Shown piece after piece: positions 15,403 through 35,090 of a DNA stretch of 62,828 bases (position 1 is its first letter; each line of letters starts with the position of its first letter). The stretch is from Candidatus Edwardsiibacteriota bacterium (GTDB lineage Bacteria > Edwardsbacteria > AC1 > EtOH8). Both the position numbers and the translations under genes were made by a program. The stretch is taken from contig JAGVNJ010000021.1 of NCBI GenBank assembly GCA_020053305.1, positions 1 to 62,828 on the forward strand, given 5' to 3'. Under the pieces are notes generated by a model, which was not told the DNA's origin, ran no database searches, and worked only from the letters and a program-made list of their open reading frames with translations.

Positions 15403-15912
15403 TCACCATTTATCCTGGTGTACTTTTTTGGTGGAATAGCGTTTCACCGGCTTACCTTTGGTTTTGGGATAACCGATCGAAATCAGAGCCAGCGGAATAA
15501 CGCTTTTCGGTATGCCCAGATATTTCTGGAATGCCTTCACCCTTTCCAGCCGGGGATACACTCCGCACCACACCGCACCCAGGCCCAGAGCATGGGCCGC
15601 CAGTAGGATATTCTGGGTGGCCGCCGAGCAGTCCTGCACCCAGTAATCCTTGCTTGTTTCAGCCTTAAGATCGCCGCATACCACTATGGCGCAGGAGGCT
15701 TCCTTCAGCATCTGGGCGTAGGGATGGATCTTGGTAATGGCAGCCAGTATTTCGCGGTCCGACACCACGATGAACTGCCAGGCCTGCTGGTTGCAGGCCG
15801 AGGGGGCGTTCATGGCGGCTTCCAGCAGTTTCTTGATCTGCGAAGAAGAAATCCTTTTGTTGGTATAACTGCGGATGCTGCGCCGGGTCATTATGGCTTT
15901 TATGGTTTCCAT
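15403..15912 (-). CDS. Nitroreductase-family flavoprotein
   Basis: A 169-residue FMN-dependent oxidoreductase of the nitroreductase superfamily, which acts as a dimer. The FMN phosphate-binding start TRRSIRSYTNKRIS and the NAPSACNQQAWQFIVV segment are characteristic, as is the C-terminal ALISIGYPKTKGKP. It is at the short end for the family but complete. It lies 68 bp downstream of the transketolase N-terminal gene and 82 bp upstream of the aldo/keto reductase, so it probably shares their transcript. The physiological substrate cannot be told from sequence. Confidence 0.88.
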   Translation of the reverse strand: METIKAIMTRRSIRSYTNKRISSSQIKKLLEAAMNAPSACNQQAWQFIVVSDREILAAITKIHPYAQMLKEASCAIVVCGDLKAETSKDYWVQDCSAATQNILLAAHALGLGAVWCGVYPRLERVKAFQKYLGIPKSVIPLALISIGYPKTKGKPVKRYSTKKVHQDKW

Positions 15913-27814: not shown

Positions 27815-30289
27815 TTAAAACTCCGCTGACAGCGAGAATTTTTTATTGAAGTTCTGCAGATCGCCGCCCGGCTCCATGGCAAAATCAAATTGTATCTTGC
27901 GGAATCCCACCCCGGCGCCGTAGGTGGGGCCTTTGATAGAGCCGACCTCGTCCAGCACATATCCGGCCCTTAGTGCCAGGCTGGCCGGGCCCAGGTACCA
28001 GTATTCCATCCCCAGGTGGTGCACCACATCCTGAAGCTCCTCCCTCCAGGGGCGGTCGGGGGAAAGGTCAACGATTGTCTTGGTAAAATCCCAGGCGGCG
28101 GTCAGTTTGGAGTACTTGCCGTCCAGGATGTCGTAGGCGGTGCCGACCCTGACGTTACGGGACAAGGGGTCGGCCTCCTGGGCGTCGATATAGGTAAGCT
28201 TGGGACCGATGTTCTGGACATTCAGGCCTAGGGCCAGACCGTCAAACGGCCCGCGATAAAGCAGTCCCAGATCCACCGCCCAGGTGGTGGCGATTCCCTT
28301 CCCCTCCTCGCCCGGAGCCCCAAAGGGAGCCAGATGCGAGTAGATCAGCTTCAGGTTGATCCCGCCGGCCAGGTTGCTGTATATCTTGTTGGCGTAGGAC
28401 AGGGATGGCGAAAACTCGTAGCTGGAGAAGGTGCCCAGCACCTTCTCGTCATTGTCAATGCGCTGGTTGGTGCCCATGGAAATAAAGACCACATTTCCGC
28501 CGAAAACCCCCCAGTCCTTCACCGGCTGGGCATAGGCAATGAACTCATAGTACATGTCGCCCACATCGCCCCAGATATCGGAAAGCCACGGCGAGTGCAT
28601 CATGGTGGCGTAATGCGGAGTGGGTTCTATTTTTCTTTTCAGGGCGCCGGGCATGGCCGATTCCAGAAGCTTCCGGTTCAATGCGGTAAGGTCTTCTATG
28701 CCCAGGTAATCTATCCCCTCCTGGATGTAGCCTATGGCCGCCGGGTCAAGATTTTCGTTTTTGAAATGTTCGGCTCTATACAAAGCCCGGTTGGCCAGCA
28801 ACTGGTTCAACCCTCCCAGCAACGATTCCTTGTCCTCCCGGCTGACAGCCTTGTTGGTCCGGTATTTGTCGCAAATGGCCTTAAATTCCGGAGCCAGCAG
28901 GCTCCGGACGTGCATCTGGACCGAGGCCAGTATTTTTTTCCGGTAGCTGGCCAGATCGGATGGAAACAAGCTTTCCATGGCCTCCCGTTTTGCCTTAAGG
29001 GCCGGCAGGTTATCCTTCTGGCCGGCCTCGCCGGTTTCATAGCCGTTGATAACCGAGTTCAGGAATTCAAGGACGCCGGCCTCCTCCTCCGGGGTCATAG
29101 CCGCCTGGCCTTGGTATCCCTTCAGCGATTCCCAGCCCGGCTGGTTTATTTTATCCAGAAAATACAACGAGAGAGAATCTTTTTTAACCCTGTCCTCGTA
29201 GGGTTTTATTTCGGAAGGCAGATAGGCCTCGCACAAGAACCGGTTCAATTTCAGGCCGTTTTGCTGACCGATCTTTTGAAAATCCACCGCCAGCCGGATA
29301 TACCGGGGATAGGCAGCCTCCAGCAGCTGGATATTCAGCAGCGCCAGCTCTCCGCCTTTGGGGTTCAGGGACAACCGGCCTTTGACTTCCTCCGGCAGTT
29401 CCACCCCGGAGAAGCGGCTGGCCTGATAGAGCCGACCTTTTAATATCTTATTAAATTCTACCGCCAGGACAAGGGCGGCCGAATCGGATGTCGGCCCCCT
29501 TTTAAGGGCAGCCTTGCTGGATAGTGAAAATCTGCCCCACAGATGTCGGGACAGGGGATCATCGGCCGCCGCCAGTTTCTGTACCAAGGCTTCAGGGTTT
29601 AATAAATCTCCGGCGGTAAATTCTTTGATGTCCCGGTCGTATTTGCCGTTTTGTACGATGGCCTTGGCCGATGGCGGCATTTCAATGCCGTCCAATGCCG
29701 ACTGACGGCAGATGGCGGAGCCCGCCGACAGCTCCCGGTTGATGCTGTGCAATACCGTCCATTTATCCTGCAGGGTCATCAGGCTGTCGGTGCTGGAGAT
29801 AACGGCCCGGGCGGTGCTGTCCAGCCATCCGGACATCAGCCGGTAAGCCCGGCTATCCTTGGTGGAATCAACCAGCAATTCGCGGAACTTGTTCCAATCC
29901 GAAATGTCCGCCACGGTCAGCAGGGGCGACTGCCTGGCCTGCAGGATGACGGAAGCGGGATCCAGCAGATCCTGCTGCTGGAACAGATAGAATGCGTCCT
30001 TGTCCTGCAGGTTGGACACTAAAATCGCCCAATCCTTGATGTCGTCCTCCTGGAAATACTGGACCACGTCCGGCATCAAAAAGGCCAGCCCGGCCGGGTT
30101 GAAATAGGTGGCGGTGGCGTCATCGGAGATGGCGGCGAAGGCGCTGCCCATGCCGCTGGGCCTGGCCCCGGGACGGATCAAAAGGAAGATGGCGCCGCCC
30201 TCGGAGATGGCGTAAGCCGTGCCGGATGCCGACGCGATGAACATCGCGGTCAACAGCATGATGATCCTGGTTGGTCTTTTAAACAGCAT
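27815..30289 (-). CDS. PorV/PorQ-like outer membrane protein with large helical insertion
   Basis: An 824-residue outer-membrane protein. After the signal peptide (IIMLLTAMFIASASGTAYA) it shows GARPSGMGSAFAAISDDATATYFNPAGLAFL in two adjacent pieces, the signature start of PorV/PorQ-family barrels. In P. gingivalis PorV works with PorU in type IX secretion. The barrel continues only near residue 550, with HYATMMHSPWLSDIWGDV, and runs to the C-terminal FNKKFSLSAEF. In between (about 75-545) lies a mostly helical, charged stretch I do not recognise. Typical family members are roughly 350-400 residues long, so this is about twice that size. It is 33 bp after the PorU-like gene and 37 bp before the M6 protease. 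Confidence 0.82.
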   Translation of the reverse strand: MLFKRPTRIIMLLTAMFIASASGTAYAISEGGAIFLLIRPGARPSGMGSAFAAISDDATATYFNPAGLAFLMPDVVQYFQEDDIKDWAILVSNLQDKDAFYLFQQQDLLDPASVILQARQSPLLTVADISDWNKFRELLVDSTKDSRAYRLMSGWLDSTARAVISSTDSLMTLQDKWTVLHSINRELSAGSAICRQSALDGIEMPPSAKAIVQNGKYDRDIKEFTAGDLLNPEALVQKLAAADDPLSRHLWGRFSLSSKAALKRGPTSDSAALVLAVEFNKILKGRLYQASRFSGVELPEEVKGRLSLNPKGGELALLNIQLLEAAYPRYIRLAVDFQKIGQQNGLKLNRFLCEAYLPSEIKPYEDRVKKDSLSLYFLDKINQPGWESLKGYQGQAAMTPEEEAGVLEFLNSVINGYETGEAGQKDNLPALKAKREAMESLFPSDLASYRKKILASVQMHVRSLLAPEFKAICDKYRTNKAVSREDKESLLGGLNQLLANRALYRAEHFKNENLDPAAIGYIQEGIDYLGIEDLTALNRKLLESAMPGALKRKIEPTPHYATMMHSPWLSDIWGDVGDMYYEFIAYAQPVKDWGVFGGNVVFISMGTNQRIDNDEKVLGTFSSYEFSPSLSYANKIYSNLAGGINLKLIYSHLAPFGAPGEEGKGIATTWAVDLGLLYRGPFDGLALGLNVQNIGPKLTYIDAQEADPLSRNVRVGTAYDILDGKYSKLTAAWDFTKTIVDLSPDRPWREELQDVVHHLGMEYWYLGPASLALRAGYVLDEVGSIKGPTYGAGVGFRKIQFDFAMEPGGDLQNFNKKFSLSAEF

Positions 30290-30322: not shown

Positions 30323-33300
30323 CTATTGACGCATTATCACTAATTTCCCGAACCCCGAGTTTTCCAGGCCGCCCTCCCGGGCGGTTACTTTATAGAGATA
30401 GGCCCCGTTGGCCGGGATGCTTCCCCTGTCATCCCTTCCGTTCCAATGTATCTGATTGTATCCGGCGTTCAGGCTGTTGGCGGGGATCTCCCGGATCAGG
30501 TTCCCGGCCACGGTGAATATTCTGATGGTCACATCCCCCGGCTGGGAAAGCATGAAGGTGAAATAGGTTTCATCCTTTAGAGGATTGGGGAAATTGTAGA
30601 TCAAGGATACCTTCAGGTCGGTCTCAATGTTGACCGCATTTTCCCACAGCCCTTTCCTCAGCCTGGTATCATAGGCTTCCACCCTGATGGTATATTTGCC
30701 GCTGGAGGTAAAATTATAGGCGTACTCCGCCGCGCCGGATGTCAGGGTGTCGTTGGAAAGGCTGTAGATAAAATCCTTGGCGATATCGGCCGAGACCAGC
30801 TGTTTCCCGTCTTTTATAATGGTGAATTTTATCTCGCCGTATTTGGAGACGCCGGGGGCGATGTTGATGCCGCTCTGGTCCGATATCTCCACCCGGAACT
30901 TGGACTGGCTGGGCAGGTAATCGTCCTGCTTTAGGGCCAACCCCCCGGCGTATACGGTTATCTTCGGCGCGGATGTATCCTGATAGGTGGTGTCAGGATT
31001 CGGGTCTACCCCGCCTATCCAGATGGTGTCGGGTGTAACCCCGGCGGCATCAGTTGATGAATTCCAGGCATAGGCCCGGACCTTGGCCCCCGGTACCGGA
31101 CCGGTATGGAGTTGGTCGGGTATATTGACGATCATTTGAAAGCTGTCATTGGCCACCGGAAACTCCCCTCGAAAAATGATATTCCCGGGAAGCAGGTAAC
31201 CGTTGCTATTGTCGGGGATATCCCTCAGTTCCAGCATCACCCTGCCAGTGAAAACACTGGAGGTTTTCACAATTCCATTGATATTGTAACGGCCTTGATT
31301 ATAAAGCGTGTCTGAACTGACGGTGATTTCAATGGGGTTCTGGGGCTGGCTGAACCTGATCCCCGGATCGCCCAGCAGTGTATAACACTGGTTATATTTG
31401 GCGGCTCTGTCGATAATAGTATCGTTACGAACATTACTTTTTAATTTTGCCAGCAATACAGATCTTCCCATATCAAACGATGAATCATATAACGCAGAAT
31501 ACAGATTTTTATTTAAACTCAGATTTAAGTCACTGTAACTCTCGCGGGTACTTCCAAAGGAAGCTATGGCGCCGCCGGAAGCTTTGGTGACCACTAAGGA
31601 ATTGATACATTTGTAATACGGATTATCAAAACGTGACACACCGCAGGAAGCTGTTATCACTAATGGCAGGCGGCTGCTATTGGACAGGTAGGGTACATCG
31701 GTGTCGCGGAAATACCATTCTTTGCCCCAGGTCCACCAGGCTCCATGACCTACAAAGTTTACGATGCCAGCTCCCTCGTTCCATTTTTTTATCACATCAG
31801 CTCTAGCGGCTGGTTTATAATCTCCTACCAGAGGATAGCTACTGCCATATACCTTATTTGCATTATATACTTTTGGTAAACGACGATACAGATCTTCCGT
31901 ATCGTTCAAATCACCATCATCCGCCACCATTATCGCTTGCGTTCGCCAGGGGGAAAAAGTATTTGGCGAATCGTAATTAATTGTTTTGTTCACCACCGCC
32001 CAGGCCTCTTCACTGTTGGCCGCCGGCAGACGAGCGATTGAGAACTGGGGATAAATGCTGGTATCACAATAGGCATACCAGTCATCATAGGAATGCACTT
32101 GATACTCACTCAAGACAAAATTCAAATTATCCTCCTGGTGAATAGGAGCCAGGTTGGTATTGGCGATGGAACGATCAACATGCCGGTAGTCATAATTACC
32201 GTTACCGAAAAGCACGCACCAGACCGGGCTGGTGCCGCCGGAATTTGTATAAATATATTTGAGGAAATTGCGGATGGCCGCCGGATCGCTGAGCCCGAAA
32301 CCGAATTCATTGTATATCCAGGAGAGCTTGACCGCCAGGGCTGGCTGCTGCTCCGGTTTGGTTTTATGATGGTTCAACAGAGCCTGGGCCTGGGGCCATA
32401 ACTGATCGGCTGTAATAACAAGATATTTCACGTCGGCGCATAATTCCCTCAAACGATTTGGCTGGTAGGCTTCCACCCTGTTCGGTTTGAGCCATGATGA
32501 TGCTGCTGACGCAAAATACCTGTTGCCGCTTTTCCAACTATCGTCAAACTGAATATAGGCCGGAAATATCTTTGAGGTCTGCAGGAACACCGGAACCTCC
32601 GGATCGGATATATCCAGCAGCTGGCAGCTATCGGAATTGAATCCGGTCAGATAGAAGCGATTGACAGTTTGACCGGATGAATCAGATCTAAATTTCAACG
32701 CCCCTTTGTATGCCTGGTATTTGCGAGAGGATATTAATTCCACCCAGTTGAAATATATGGCATCAGTAGTATCTGCGTTTTCCTTCAACAGGGTGATGGT
32801 CAAAGTGTTATTTCCATCCCGCAGATTAACGATGTTCACTGAATCGATCTTCTCTTTGACTGTTATTGGCTCACTGCCATTATCCGGCGGCCCCGGACTG
32901 CCAGTCCAAGAAAAGTCCTTTGACGGCGATCCGTTCAAACCCCAAACCACATGATGCTTGGAATCAAGCCCTGCCCTGAGAGATATCCGCAATTTCCCAT
33001 TTGCGTCGGAAACACCGGGGATGGCCAGGTCATACGAATATGTCCGGCTGTTTTCCGAGGAGGCCCTCCTCATATTGGCCCAGTAATAGAACTCTCCGGA
33101 ATTGAAGGGATTGAATTTATCCTGTTCAAAATGCAGGGTATCGGTAAAAGACTGCAATGGCTGCAGATTTTCCTGACCCGGCTCGCAGTTCCTTACCTGC
33201 ATCCGCCGGCCGTTGTCGCCGCCCCAGGTCAGCCAGTAGCAGTTGGTATCGGTATAAGGATTGAAAAACTGCGGGGTCGTCAATTTTGAATTTTTGTTCC

Positions 33301-34267
33301 AGCCCGACAGATCCTGCCCGTAGAAAATTATATGATCACCTTGGTCAAACCGGCCGTCCTCCTGCCCTTTCACCCAAAGGGCGATCTGTTTCATGGTATC
33401 CGGCACGGCAATATTTCGGTCCTTGGGCAGGGCCGCCGAGCCTCCCGAGAATATCTTGATGGTCCGGGGATCGATGACCGCCGGATCTACTCCGTTGCGC
33501 AGCAGGTAATCATAATCCAGGCGGTAGATGCCCTCCTGGGTTACCTTTACTTTATACCATACGGGATGTCCGTCAAACGGGTCAACCGCTTTTGCTTTGG
33601 AAGTTTTTTCAGAAACCTTCCAATTGCGGCACTGGGGATAATTGACCAGCAGTTTTGAGAACACCGGAACAAAGGCCTGATCCGGCCGGGAATCGTTATC
33701 CCGCCCGGCGATATCCCAGCTGACCTTGACCGTTATTCTTTTGTTCAGCCTTAATACGCCCGCTAAAGGGTCGTATTGGACCGGAGCCACCTTTACTCCG
33801 GCTATATTAAACTGCCGCAGCCTTTCGACTGATACCAGGCTGGCAATTGCCCCGGGCAGCATACCCGCCTTGCCATAGTGTGAAGGATTCTTAACATACC
33901 TGTATGAGCCCAAGCCGGGCTGACCAGATGATGTCAGGACGGGGTTAGGAGCCAAGTTGAAGTCATGGATATCCTCCGATTCCACCGACAAGACCTGCAC
34001 CTTGACCCGGGCTCCTTCCGGAACGCCCAAGCTTAGCGGGTGCTCCAAAGCAGCCGGCGCTCCGGGCTCCCCTGCCGTCTGGCAGCCGGGCAGAAATATG
34101 ATCTGCTCGCCATCGGCATTGGTCTTGAACTCCGGCTGCTCCATGGTGTATTCGACGACGGCGGAGAATGCATCGGCCGAAACCAACCGGGTCTCTGCCC
34201 TAAGCAAACCGCAAGTTGCCATCATTAGGATCAGGATATATGTGAACTTTTTCATCATACTTTTCAT
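30323..34267 (-). CDS. PorU-like C25 (gingipain-family) cysteine peptidase
   Basis: About 1314 residues from an ATG at 34267, with a second candidate at 34258, chosen because a signal peptide follows (KKFTYILILMMATCGLLRA). The catalytic His is in NFVGHGAWW (about residue 839) and the catalytic Cys in TASCGVSRFDNP (about 874). These are the two halves of a C25 active site, in the form seen in PorU, the type IX sortase that removes cargo sorting domains and attaches A-LPS. The C-terminus (NFPNPLKDETYF to GAYLYKVTA, then KLVIMRQ) is a FlgD/type A sorting-like Ig domain, as PorU itself carries. It is the first gene of the envelope cluster. Its leader holds a consensus promoter and competing hairpins. 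Confidence 0.85.
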   Translation of the reverse strand: MKSMMKKFTYILILMMATCGLLRAETRLVSADAFSAVVEYTMEQPEFKTNADGEQIIFLPGCQTAGEPGAPAALEHPLSLGVPEGARVKVQVLSVESEDIHDFNLAPNPVLTSSGQPGLGSYRYVKNPSHYGKAGMLPGAIASLVSVERLRQFNIAGVKVAPVQYDPLAGVLRLNKRITVKVSWDIAGRDNDSRPDQAFVPVFSKLLVNYPQCRNWKVSEKTSKAKAVDPFDGHPVWYKVKVTQEGIYRLDYDYLLRNGVDPAVIDPRTIKIFSGGSAALPKDRNIAVPDTMKQIALWVKGQEDGRFDQGDHIIFYGQDLSGWNKNSKLTTPQFFNPYTDTNCYWLTWGGDNGRRMQVRNCEPGQENLQPLQSFTDTLHFEQDKFNPFNSGEFYYWANMRRASSENSRTYSYDLAIPGVSDANGKLRISLRAGLDSKHHVVWGLNGSPSKDFSWTGSPGPPDNGSEPITVKEKIDSVNIVNLRDGNNTLTITLLKENADTTDAIYFNWVELISSRKYQAYKGALKFRSDSSGQTVNRFYLTGFNSDSCQLLDISDPEVPVFLQTSKIFPAYIQFDDSWKSGNRYFASAASSWLKPNRVEAYQPNRLRELCADVKYLVITADQLWPQAQALLNHHKTKPEQQPALAVKLSWIYNEFGFGLSDPAAIRNFLKYIYTNSGGTSPVWCVLFGNGNYDYRHVDRSIANTNLAPIHQEDNLNFVLSEYQVHSYDDWYAYCDTSIYPQFSIARLPAANSEEAWAVVNKTINYDSPNTFSPWRTQAIMVADDGDLNDTEDLYRRLPKVYNANKVYGSSYPLVGDYKPAARADVIKKWNEGAGIVNFVGHGAWWTWGKEWYFRDTDVPYLSNSSRLPLVITASCGVSRFDNPYYKCINSLVVTKASGGAIASFGSTRESYSDLNLSLNKNLYSALYDSSFDMGRSVLLAKLKSNVRNDTIIDRAAKYNQCYTLLGDPGIRFSQPQNPIEITVSSDTLYNQGRYNINGIVKTSSVFTGRVMLELRDIPDNSNGYLLPGNIIFRGEFPVANDSFQMIVNIPDQLHTGPVPGAKVRAYAWNSSTDAAGVTPDTIWIGGVDPNPDTTYQDTSAPKITVYAGGLALKQDDYLPSQSKFRVEISDQSGINIAPGVSKYGEIKFTIIKDGKQLVSADIAKDFIYSLSNDTLTSGAAEYAYNFTSSGKYTIRVEAYDTRLRKGLWENAVNIETDLKVSLIYNFPNPLKDETYFTFMLSQPGDVTIRIFTVAGNLIREIPANSLNAGYNQIHWNGRDDRGSIPANGAYLYKVTAREGGLENSGFGKLVIMRQ

Positions 34268-34270
34268 AAT

Positions 34271-34333
34271 AATAAAAACCGGTATCCCGTTAAGAGACCC
34301 GGCTTTTGTGGGGTTAACATAATAGTAAAAGCC
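34271..34333 (-). promoter_or_regulatory. Candidate transcription attenuator ahead of the PorU-like gene
   Basis: Minus strand, two exclusive structures. Terminator: AAAAGCCGGGTCTC pairs with GGGAT-A-CCGGTTTTT (14 pairs with G-Us, one bulge, 5-nt loop; plus 34274-34307) and ends in TTTTTATTATT right before the start codon. Antiterminator: GGCTTTT (plus 34327-34333) pairs with the same AAAAGCC (plus 34301-34307), extendable by two pairs. The remaining leader of about 130 nt is AT-rich and has another complementary pair, TGGGGT with ACCCCA. No known riboswitch class was recognised. Confidence 0.5.
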
Positions 34334-34468
34334 AGTGTCGCTTAAATCTTTATATGCCAAAATAGGATATTTATCAATTTAAAATCGACAAACACCCCAA
34401 GCACTAAAAATTTAAACCAGGGTCACTGACTTTAAGATCCTTATAAAAGCTCCGATTAATTTACATTA

Positions 34469-34497
34469 ACTATAATCTAAATTAGGTTATTTGTCAA
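34469..34497 (-). promoter_or_regulatory. Sigma70 promoter for the PorU-like gene cluster
   Basis: TTGACA (plus 34492-34497) and TATAGT (plus 34469-34474) on the minus strand with exactly 17 bp between. It would start a leader of about 195 nt ahead of the PorU-like gene. Confidence 0.75.
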
Positions 34498-34535: not shown

Positions 34536-35090
34536 TCACTTAACTAAATTTACCAAACTATTATACTCTTCTAATATCTGTTTTAGCGCTTTTGTTTGTT
34601 CAGGGGAAACATCTTCGCCACCCAAAATTAATGCCGCACCAGCACCTGCGGCAGCACCGACGCCAATGCTAATTGGCAAACCCAAAAGAATAGATTTAGG
34701 ATCGCCCCAAGGCTCGGCAATACTTAAACTGGCTGCGTAAATAAGTAACACTACGTATAAACCACCACCCAGTTTAGCGCCGGTTCTTAAACCAGTAACA
34801 ACGGATCTTTTTTTATTTTGACAATAGTTTTTTTTCTGGATATTATTTAAGCTATCAGCTTTAACAACAATGGGTAATAATCTTTCATCACTTGGGAAAT
34901 AATTATTTACATTGTTTTTCATTTCCCTTATTTTGTCGTCAAATGTAGCTTGATACATTTTTTCACCAACAGGCACTTCAATATATAAATAATCTCTCGT
35001 ATCATTTTTTGTCAACTTACCATTGCCGGTTGCACAACCAGTGGTAAATATAACGATTAACAAAAATAGCGTTACGTTATTTTTAATCAT
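34536..35090 (-). CDS. AT-rich lipoprotein with glycine-zipper membrane segment
   Basis: A 184-residue protein with signal MIKNNVTLFLLIVIFTTGCA and lipobox FTTGC, so it is probably lipidated. The middle is charged and Lys/Asn-rich. It then has two hydrophobic stretches: GGGLYVVLLIYAASLSIA, and a Gly/Ala zipper (ISIGVGAAAGAGAALILGG) that could insert in a membrane. The tail EQTKALKQILEEYNSLV is helical. I do not recognise the family. Its AT-rich composition differs from pilD and the secretion genes on either side, like the partial gene at the left edge and the broken lipoprotein at 46.6 kb. Confidence 0.75.
   Translation of the reverse strand: MIKNNVTLFLLIVIFTTGCATGNGKLTKNDTRDYLYIEVPVGEKMYQATFDDKIREMKNNVNNYFPSDERLLPIVVKADSLNNIQKKNYCQNKKRSVVTGLRTGAKLGGGLYVVLLIYAASLSIAEPWGDPKSILLGLPISIGVGAAAGAGAALILGGEDVSPEQTKALKQILEEYNSLVNLVK

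Follow-up and report, generated by a model that had tools for sequence, protein, structure and literature searches.

In the Bacillus subtilis rplJL leader, an autogenous attenuator, L10(L12)4 stabilises an anti-antiterminator with a kink-turn and a UAA, to which L10 binds, and the leader is on by default (PMC4538822). In the vmlR leader of the same species, the anti-antiterminator is opened by a stalled ribosome (PMC9226507). Metabolite riboswitches with transcription-terminator platforms exchange strands between P1, antiterminator and terminator, one segment serving in only one of its pairings at a time. Regulation of the type IX secretion system (T9SS) has been studied mainly via sigma factors and two-component systems in Bacteroidota. 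High osmotic pressure induces porU in Flavobacterium psychrophilum, where the gene is listed as having an alternative-sigma-type promoter (PMC9723704).

We analysed a window of 62,828 nucleotides from a Candidatus Edwardsiibacteriota bacterium (contig JAGVNJ010000021.1), in which a structured leader precedes porU. This leader shares with rplJL three overlapping structures, namely an anti-antiterminator (AAT), an antiterminator (AT) and an intrinsic terminator (T), and in our proposal the regulator likewise acts on the AAT. Genes and phylum differ, and the porU leader is predicted to be off by default. Neither an rplJL-type kink-turn/UAA nor another known binding motif was identified in it. Attenuators of the vmlR and trp type resemble it in the AAT/AT/T logic and in a Shine-Dalgarno-like block before the AAT, but need a translated upstream ORF, whereas the porU leader has no conserved ORF. 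Since a search of it for a leader ORF and for known binding motifs found none, membership in the rplJL or vmlR class is not claimed. The strand exchange of metabolite riboswitches is also alike, although the porU leader lacks a conserved aptamer or Rfam class. In Bacteroidota, porU and T9SS genes are condition-controlled, as proposed here; the F. psychrophilum promoter is of the alternative-sigma type, whereas the present leader has a housekeeping-type promoter and its control is predicted to lie in the RNA leader.

The porU leader and the genes behind it

The TTGACA/TATAGT promoter with 17-bp spacing reported in the preliminary description is present on the minus strand, with TTGACA at 34497-34492 and TATAGT at 34474-34469. 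A pattern search of the genome for the extended form TTGACAAA-15-TATAGTTA, allowing up to 2 mismatches, gave 40 matches compared with 3 for the reversed control pattern, which indicates that this is the genome's normal promoter type. The predicted promoter is thus housekeeping-type, and transcription is expected to start there. Approximately 190 nt separate it from the terminator end, directly upstream of porU. The porU leader sequence was not found elsewhere in the genome, and this single-copy occurrence led us to reject a mobile repeat. The elements flanking the folded part of the leader are as follows.

34469-34497, minus strand: sigma70-type promoter TTGACA-17-TATAGT; a TTGACA-type promoter precedes porU in 10/10 genomes
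34450-34453, minus strand: purine block GGAG, Shine-Dalgarno-like, ~20 nt 5' of the AAT left arm
30323-34258, minus strand: porU, the controlled gene, a T9SS sortase and C25 peptidase (NF033707, 618.7 bits against a cut-off of 420; Pfam C25 and propeptide)
27815-30289, minus strand: PorV/PorQ-family gene after porU (NF033709, 195 bits against a cut-off of 90)

The PorV/PorQ-family gene is probably on the same transcript as porU. Its 824-aa product is an unusually long PorV relative, in which the family match covers only the C-terminal part (residues ~561-823) and a weak PorV2-like match covers residues 23-70.

Three overlapping folds

The whole porU leader of the window genome (G000) folds at -63.8 kcal/mol (z = -6.8), and 0/200 shuffles were as good. 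Its structural elements are listed below.

34424-34433, minus strand: AAT (P1) left arm AAAGTCAGTG, pairing with 34328-34337; pairing kept across genera
34328-34337, minus strand: AAT (P1) right arm CACTGGCTTT, from the fold; overlaps the AT left strand
34341-34414, minus strand: upper part of the AAT in the long-hairpin fold, AU-rich with a variable interior; kept within the genus, not between genera
34327-34339, minus strand: AT left strand GACACTGGCTTTT, the best leader partner of the terminator 5' arm; in the homologous place in 16/16 leader instances
34296-34307, minus strand: AT right strand AAAAGCCGGGTC, doubling as most of the terminator 5' arm
34274-34307, minus strand: intrinsic terminator, a 14-pair hairpin with a TTAAC loop and a U tract; identical in four congeners

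The preliminary description had 34301-34307 pairing either with 34327-34333 or inside the terminator hairpin, and both pairings are present in the sequence. The AT core is formed by AAAAGCC (34307-34301) and the complementary GGCTTTT (34333-34327). The nine antiterminator pairs described earlier are real and extend to 12, with one bulged A (34339-34327 with 34307-34296). In the terminator, 34307-34294 pairs with 34288-34275, again with one bulged A, and T5 lies at 34278-34274. This upholds the 14-pair hairpin and T run proposed previously but not their placement against the start codon: the other three congeners read ATT in place of the first ATG, the one at the T-run end (34267-34265), so that the porU start conserved in an alignment of the four congeners is probably at 34258.

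The ~130 nt upstream of the AT, earlier left unassigned and suggested as a sensor, fold in G000 into one long hairpin, the AAT. Its base, AAAGUCAGUG:CACUGGCUUU (34433-34424 with 34337-34328), occupies the bases of the AT left strand, and AAT, AT and T therefore form a chain of three overlapping structures. Each fold shares bases with the next and neighbours exclude each other, so that, as judged from sequence, the three are mutually exclusive. The suggestion of a sensor is thus borne out only in part: the segment forms the AAT hairpin but shows no sign of a conserved ligand-binding aptamer, since the AAT interior is not conserved across genera or copies. In G000 this interior is an almost continuous helix in which a binding pocket is not evident.

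In G000, the AT left strand is the leader segment that pairs best with the terminator 5' arm (-16.6 kcal/mol; p ~0.015 against dinucleotide shuffles). In a window-wide test of the same kind, in GC-rich DNA, numerous terminator-like sites had 'antiterminators' at least as strong. Given this p value and how common chance AT-like pairings are in GC-rich DNA, a single sequence is weak evidence. The predicted attenuator is instead established by its conservation in 10/10 genomes and by a second copy, not by G000 alone.

Conservation and a second copy

All 10 available genomes of the phylum, which represent one family and four genera, were compared. Promoter, AAT, AT and a T-type hairpin precede porU in each (10/10), following a shared plan: a hairpin with a GUC(A/G)G... 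base, whose 3' side contains an AT strand, and then a GCCGG...CCGG hairpin. Three overlapping structures were found in 10/10 porU leaders and in 6 second copies. In 10/10 porU leaders and 6/6 second-operon leaders, no other segment pairs as well with the terminator 5' arm as the AT left strand, which lies in the homologous position each time. The terminator/antiterminator architecture proposed from one sequence is therefore backed by the cross-genome comparison. A purine block of GGAG/GAGG/GGGG type lies 18-23 nt 5' of GUCAG in 14 of the 16 leader instances compared and is absent from the G004 and G007 leaders; the anti-SD p values of individual blocks are mostly not significant.

Covariation in relatives, which had been suggested as a check, was found as two-sided changes with pairing kept in 3/10 AT columns and 3/9 P1 columns. 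These counts come from a hand alignment of ~8 distinct leader groups, too few for formal covariation statistics, and so support but do not prove P1 and AT pairing. When all ten porU leaders were aligned automatically, RNAalifold detected no further helix besides the terminator; the automatic MAFFT/RNAalifold route failed because the interiors are too divergent. Alignment succeeded within a genus, within one of the two copies, or manually on the AAT base. A shuffle control on A6 was not significant. Within the genus, leader identity is 85-91% versus 58-70% at porU fourfold sites. The AAT interior varies from genus to genus and also from one copy to the other within a genome. Both copies share the P1 base and a 5' UUNAANGUCAG-type stretch.

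The quality of the U tract varies. Before porU it is clear in G000-G003, G005 and G006 and fair in G008 and G009; G004 has a weak or displaced tract and G007 an offset one. Before the second operon it is weak or displaced in G000, G002 and G003. The gene upstream of the porU leader in G004 and G007 is a divergent M19 dipeptidase, which indicates that the element belongs to porU and that the hairpins are not an upstream operon's terminator in these two genomes.

Covariance model R1, for which only G006, G008 and G009 supplied porU leaders, gave one extra, syntenic place each in G000 and G001, with E values of 0.11 and 0.33 that are weak alone. Model R2 confirmed this second copy in all four congeners.

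L076 2060-2255 (G000:C26 ~15559-15755), plus strand: second copy in the window genome, with the same attenuator architecture
L077, L078, L079, L080 and L081: further second-copy loci

The second copy carries the full set of promoter, UGUCAGUAUC...GAUACUGGCUA, AT and T. The operon behind it encodes first a type-A T9SS-sorted protein (TIGR04183) and then a PorU2-like C25 protein, suggesting that a single signal governs a small T9SS regulon. The copy occurs in two of the four genera. The window's genus has it in 4/4 genomes; in the second genus G006 and G009 have it, and there the AT of the second operon is kept with other bases (AUGAUGCCGGCC:GGGCUGGUAUCA type) by paired changes. In G004 and G007 (L083 and L084) the second T9SS operon has no attenuator and its promoter lies almost at the start codon; the element was thus gained or lost at this operon in one genus. 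A third model, trained on the second copies and the G004/G007 porU leaders, recovered untrained porU leaders at weak significance (E values of 0.013 for G008, 0.044 for G006, 0.23 for G003 and 0.35 for G001).

Weak additional R2/R3 matches were rejected. L089, L090, L095, L096, L105, L107, L108, L111, L112, L114 and L119 are ordinary-looking terminators near gene ends without an AAT, and L113 has neither structure nor AAT. An AT-plus-T pattern search of the window genome gave 34 matches versus 22 in the control, and among the 30 inspected only the C26 copy had both promoter and terminator. Within search sensitivity the window genome has two copies; highly diverged further copies are possible.

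A proposed default-off attenuator and its alternatives

Fold energies were computed for all ten porU leaders. On full-length RNA, the T fold beats a forced AT by 2-26 kcal/mol in 10/10. On nascent RNA reaching only as far as the T 5' arm, the difference between AT and AAT is 0-4 kcal/mol in 7/10; in G006, G008 and G009, AT is 6-17 kcal/mol worse than AAT even on nascent RNA. A terminator that is more stable at full length, with AAT and AT close on nascent RNA, predicts a default-off attenuator, the folding kinetics being our inference from these energies.

We consider it likely that the porU leader is a three-state, default-off transcription attenuator opened by a trans-acting factor. The AAT hairpin would emerge first, its 3' arm CACUGGCUUU being the AT left strand. 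With the AAT closed, AAAAGCCGG... would remain free and fold with the downstream CCGGUUUU into the terminator, leaving porU off by default. Were a trans-acting factor to keep the AAT from closing, CUGGCUUUU could pair with AAAAGCCGG and block the terminator, which would permit transcription of porU and the downstream porV-like gene. The factor would most likely be a protein or other regulator that acts on the conserved AAT base or on the 5' segment with the purine block. A trans-acting factor is favoured by the lack of a conserved interior, of a conserved ORF and of CsrA. Control by CsrA had been considered because of GGA motifs and was rejected: PF02599 is absent in G000, G002, G004 and G006, while control genomes were positive.

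A T fold that is always favoured at full length would also suit a fixed, unregulated partial terminator merely setting a low PorU level. Such a terminator, however, needs neither an AT in 16/16 instances nor a competing hairpin, and we find this account rather unlikely. The variable interior and the lack of a conserved leader peptide argue against both a classical metabolite riboswitch and trp-type attenuation. A new metabolite or ion riboswitch, in which a ligand would stabilise an AAT aptamer and shut porU off, has in its favour the same P1/AT/T expression-platform logic, an ordered leader under purifying selection, and the P1 base and UUNAANGUCAG-type stretch common to both copies. Yet the hairpin interior varies between genera and between same-genome copies, the G000 helix is near-continuous with no evident pocket, and no aptamer conserved in sequence and structure was found across relatives and copies. 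The preliminary description had recognised no known riboswitch class; in agreement with this, none of the 4227 Rfam 15 families matched the window at the gathering threshold, and at relaxed thresholds the window leader and its relatives gave nothing above chance-level matches. A riboswitch is accordingly unlikely.

Ribosome-mediated attenuation of the trp or vmlR type would have a short leader ORF translated over the AAT left arm to free the AT. The placement of the Shine-Dalgarno-like block in 14/16 instances would fit this scheme, and vmlR uses the same three-structure logic (PMC9226507). The block is, however, absent in G004 and G007 and mostly not significant individually, and starts, frames, lengths and stops vary between genera with no conserved ATG/GTG/TTG ORF. 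No conserved short ORF overlaps the AAT left arm, and reading AUA/AUU starts by eye as well gave no conserved frame. We regard this mechanism as quite improbable. More doubtful still, and in our view very improbable, is an independent small RNA gene, 6S for example, or an upstream operon's terminator unrelated to porU control. Length (~190 nt), a strong promoter, high structure and a terminator at the end would be consistent with a small RNA, but 6S RNA is encoded elsewhere in the genome, its single RF00013 match (85 bits) lying at G000:C28 and not at the porU leader, and the leader stays with porU in all genomes. An upstream terminator is at odds with the divergent upstream gene in G004 and G007 and with the recurrence of the leader before another T9SS operon.

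Returning to the factor-opened attenuator, we hold with evenly balanced confidence the wider proposal that these leaders form a new, phylum-restricted and factor-bound cis-regulatory RNA family, which would couple T9SS sortases (PorU and the PorU2-like operon) to a physiological signal via attenuation. If so, an RNA layer common to two operons in an uncultured phylum would be added to T9SS control, providing a defined handle for finding the trigger. The family would also represent an attenuator that keeps its switching base while the remaining 'sensor' hairpin turns over. A limited search, covering the open-access literature, turned up no published RNA switch on T9SS genes; to our knowledge and within that search, a T9SS switch acting at the RNA level would be described here for the first time.

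In the window genome, the prepilin peptidase gene and the porU leader are separated by a 184-aa gene (34536-35090, minus strand) for which Pfam, NCBIfam and PHROGs gave no match. The congeners seem to have the prepilin peptidase gene immediately next to the porU leader.
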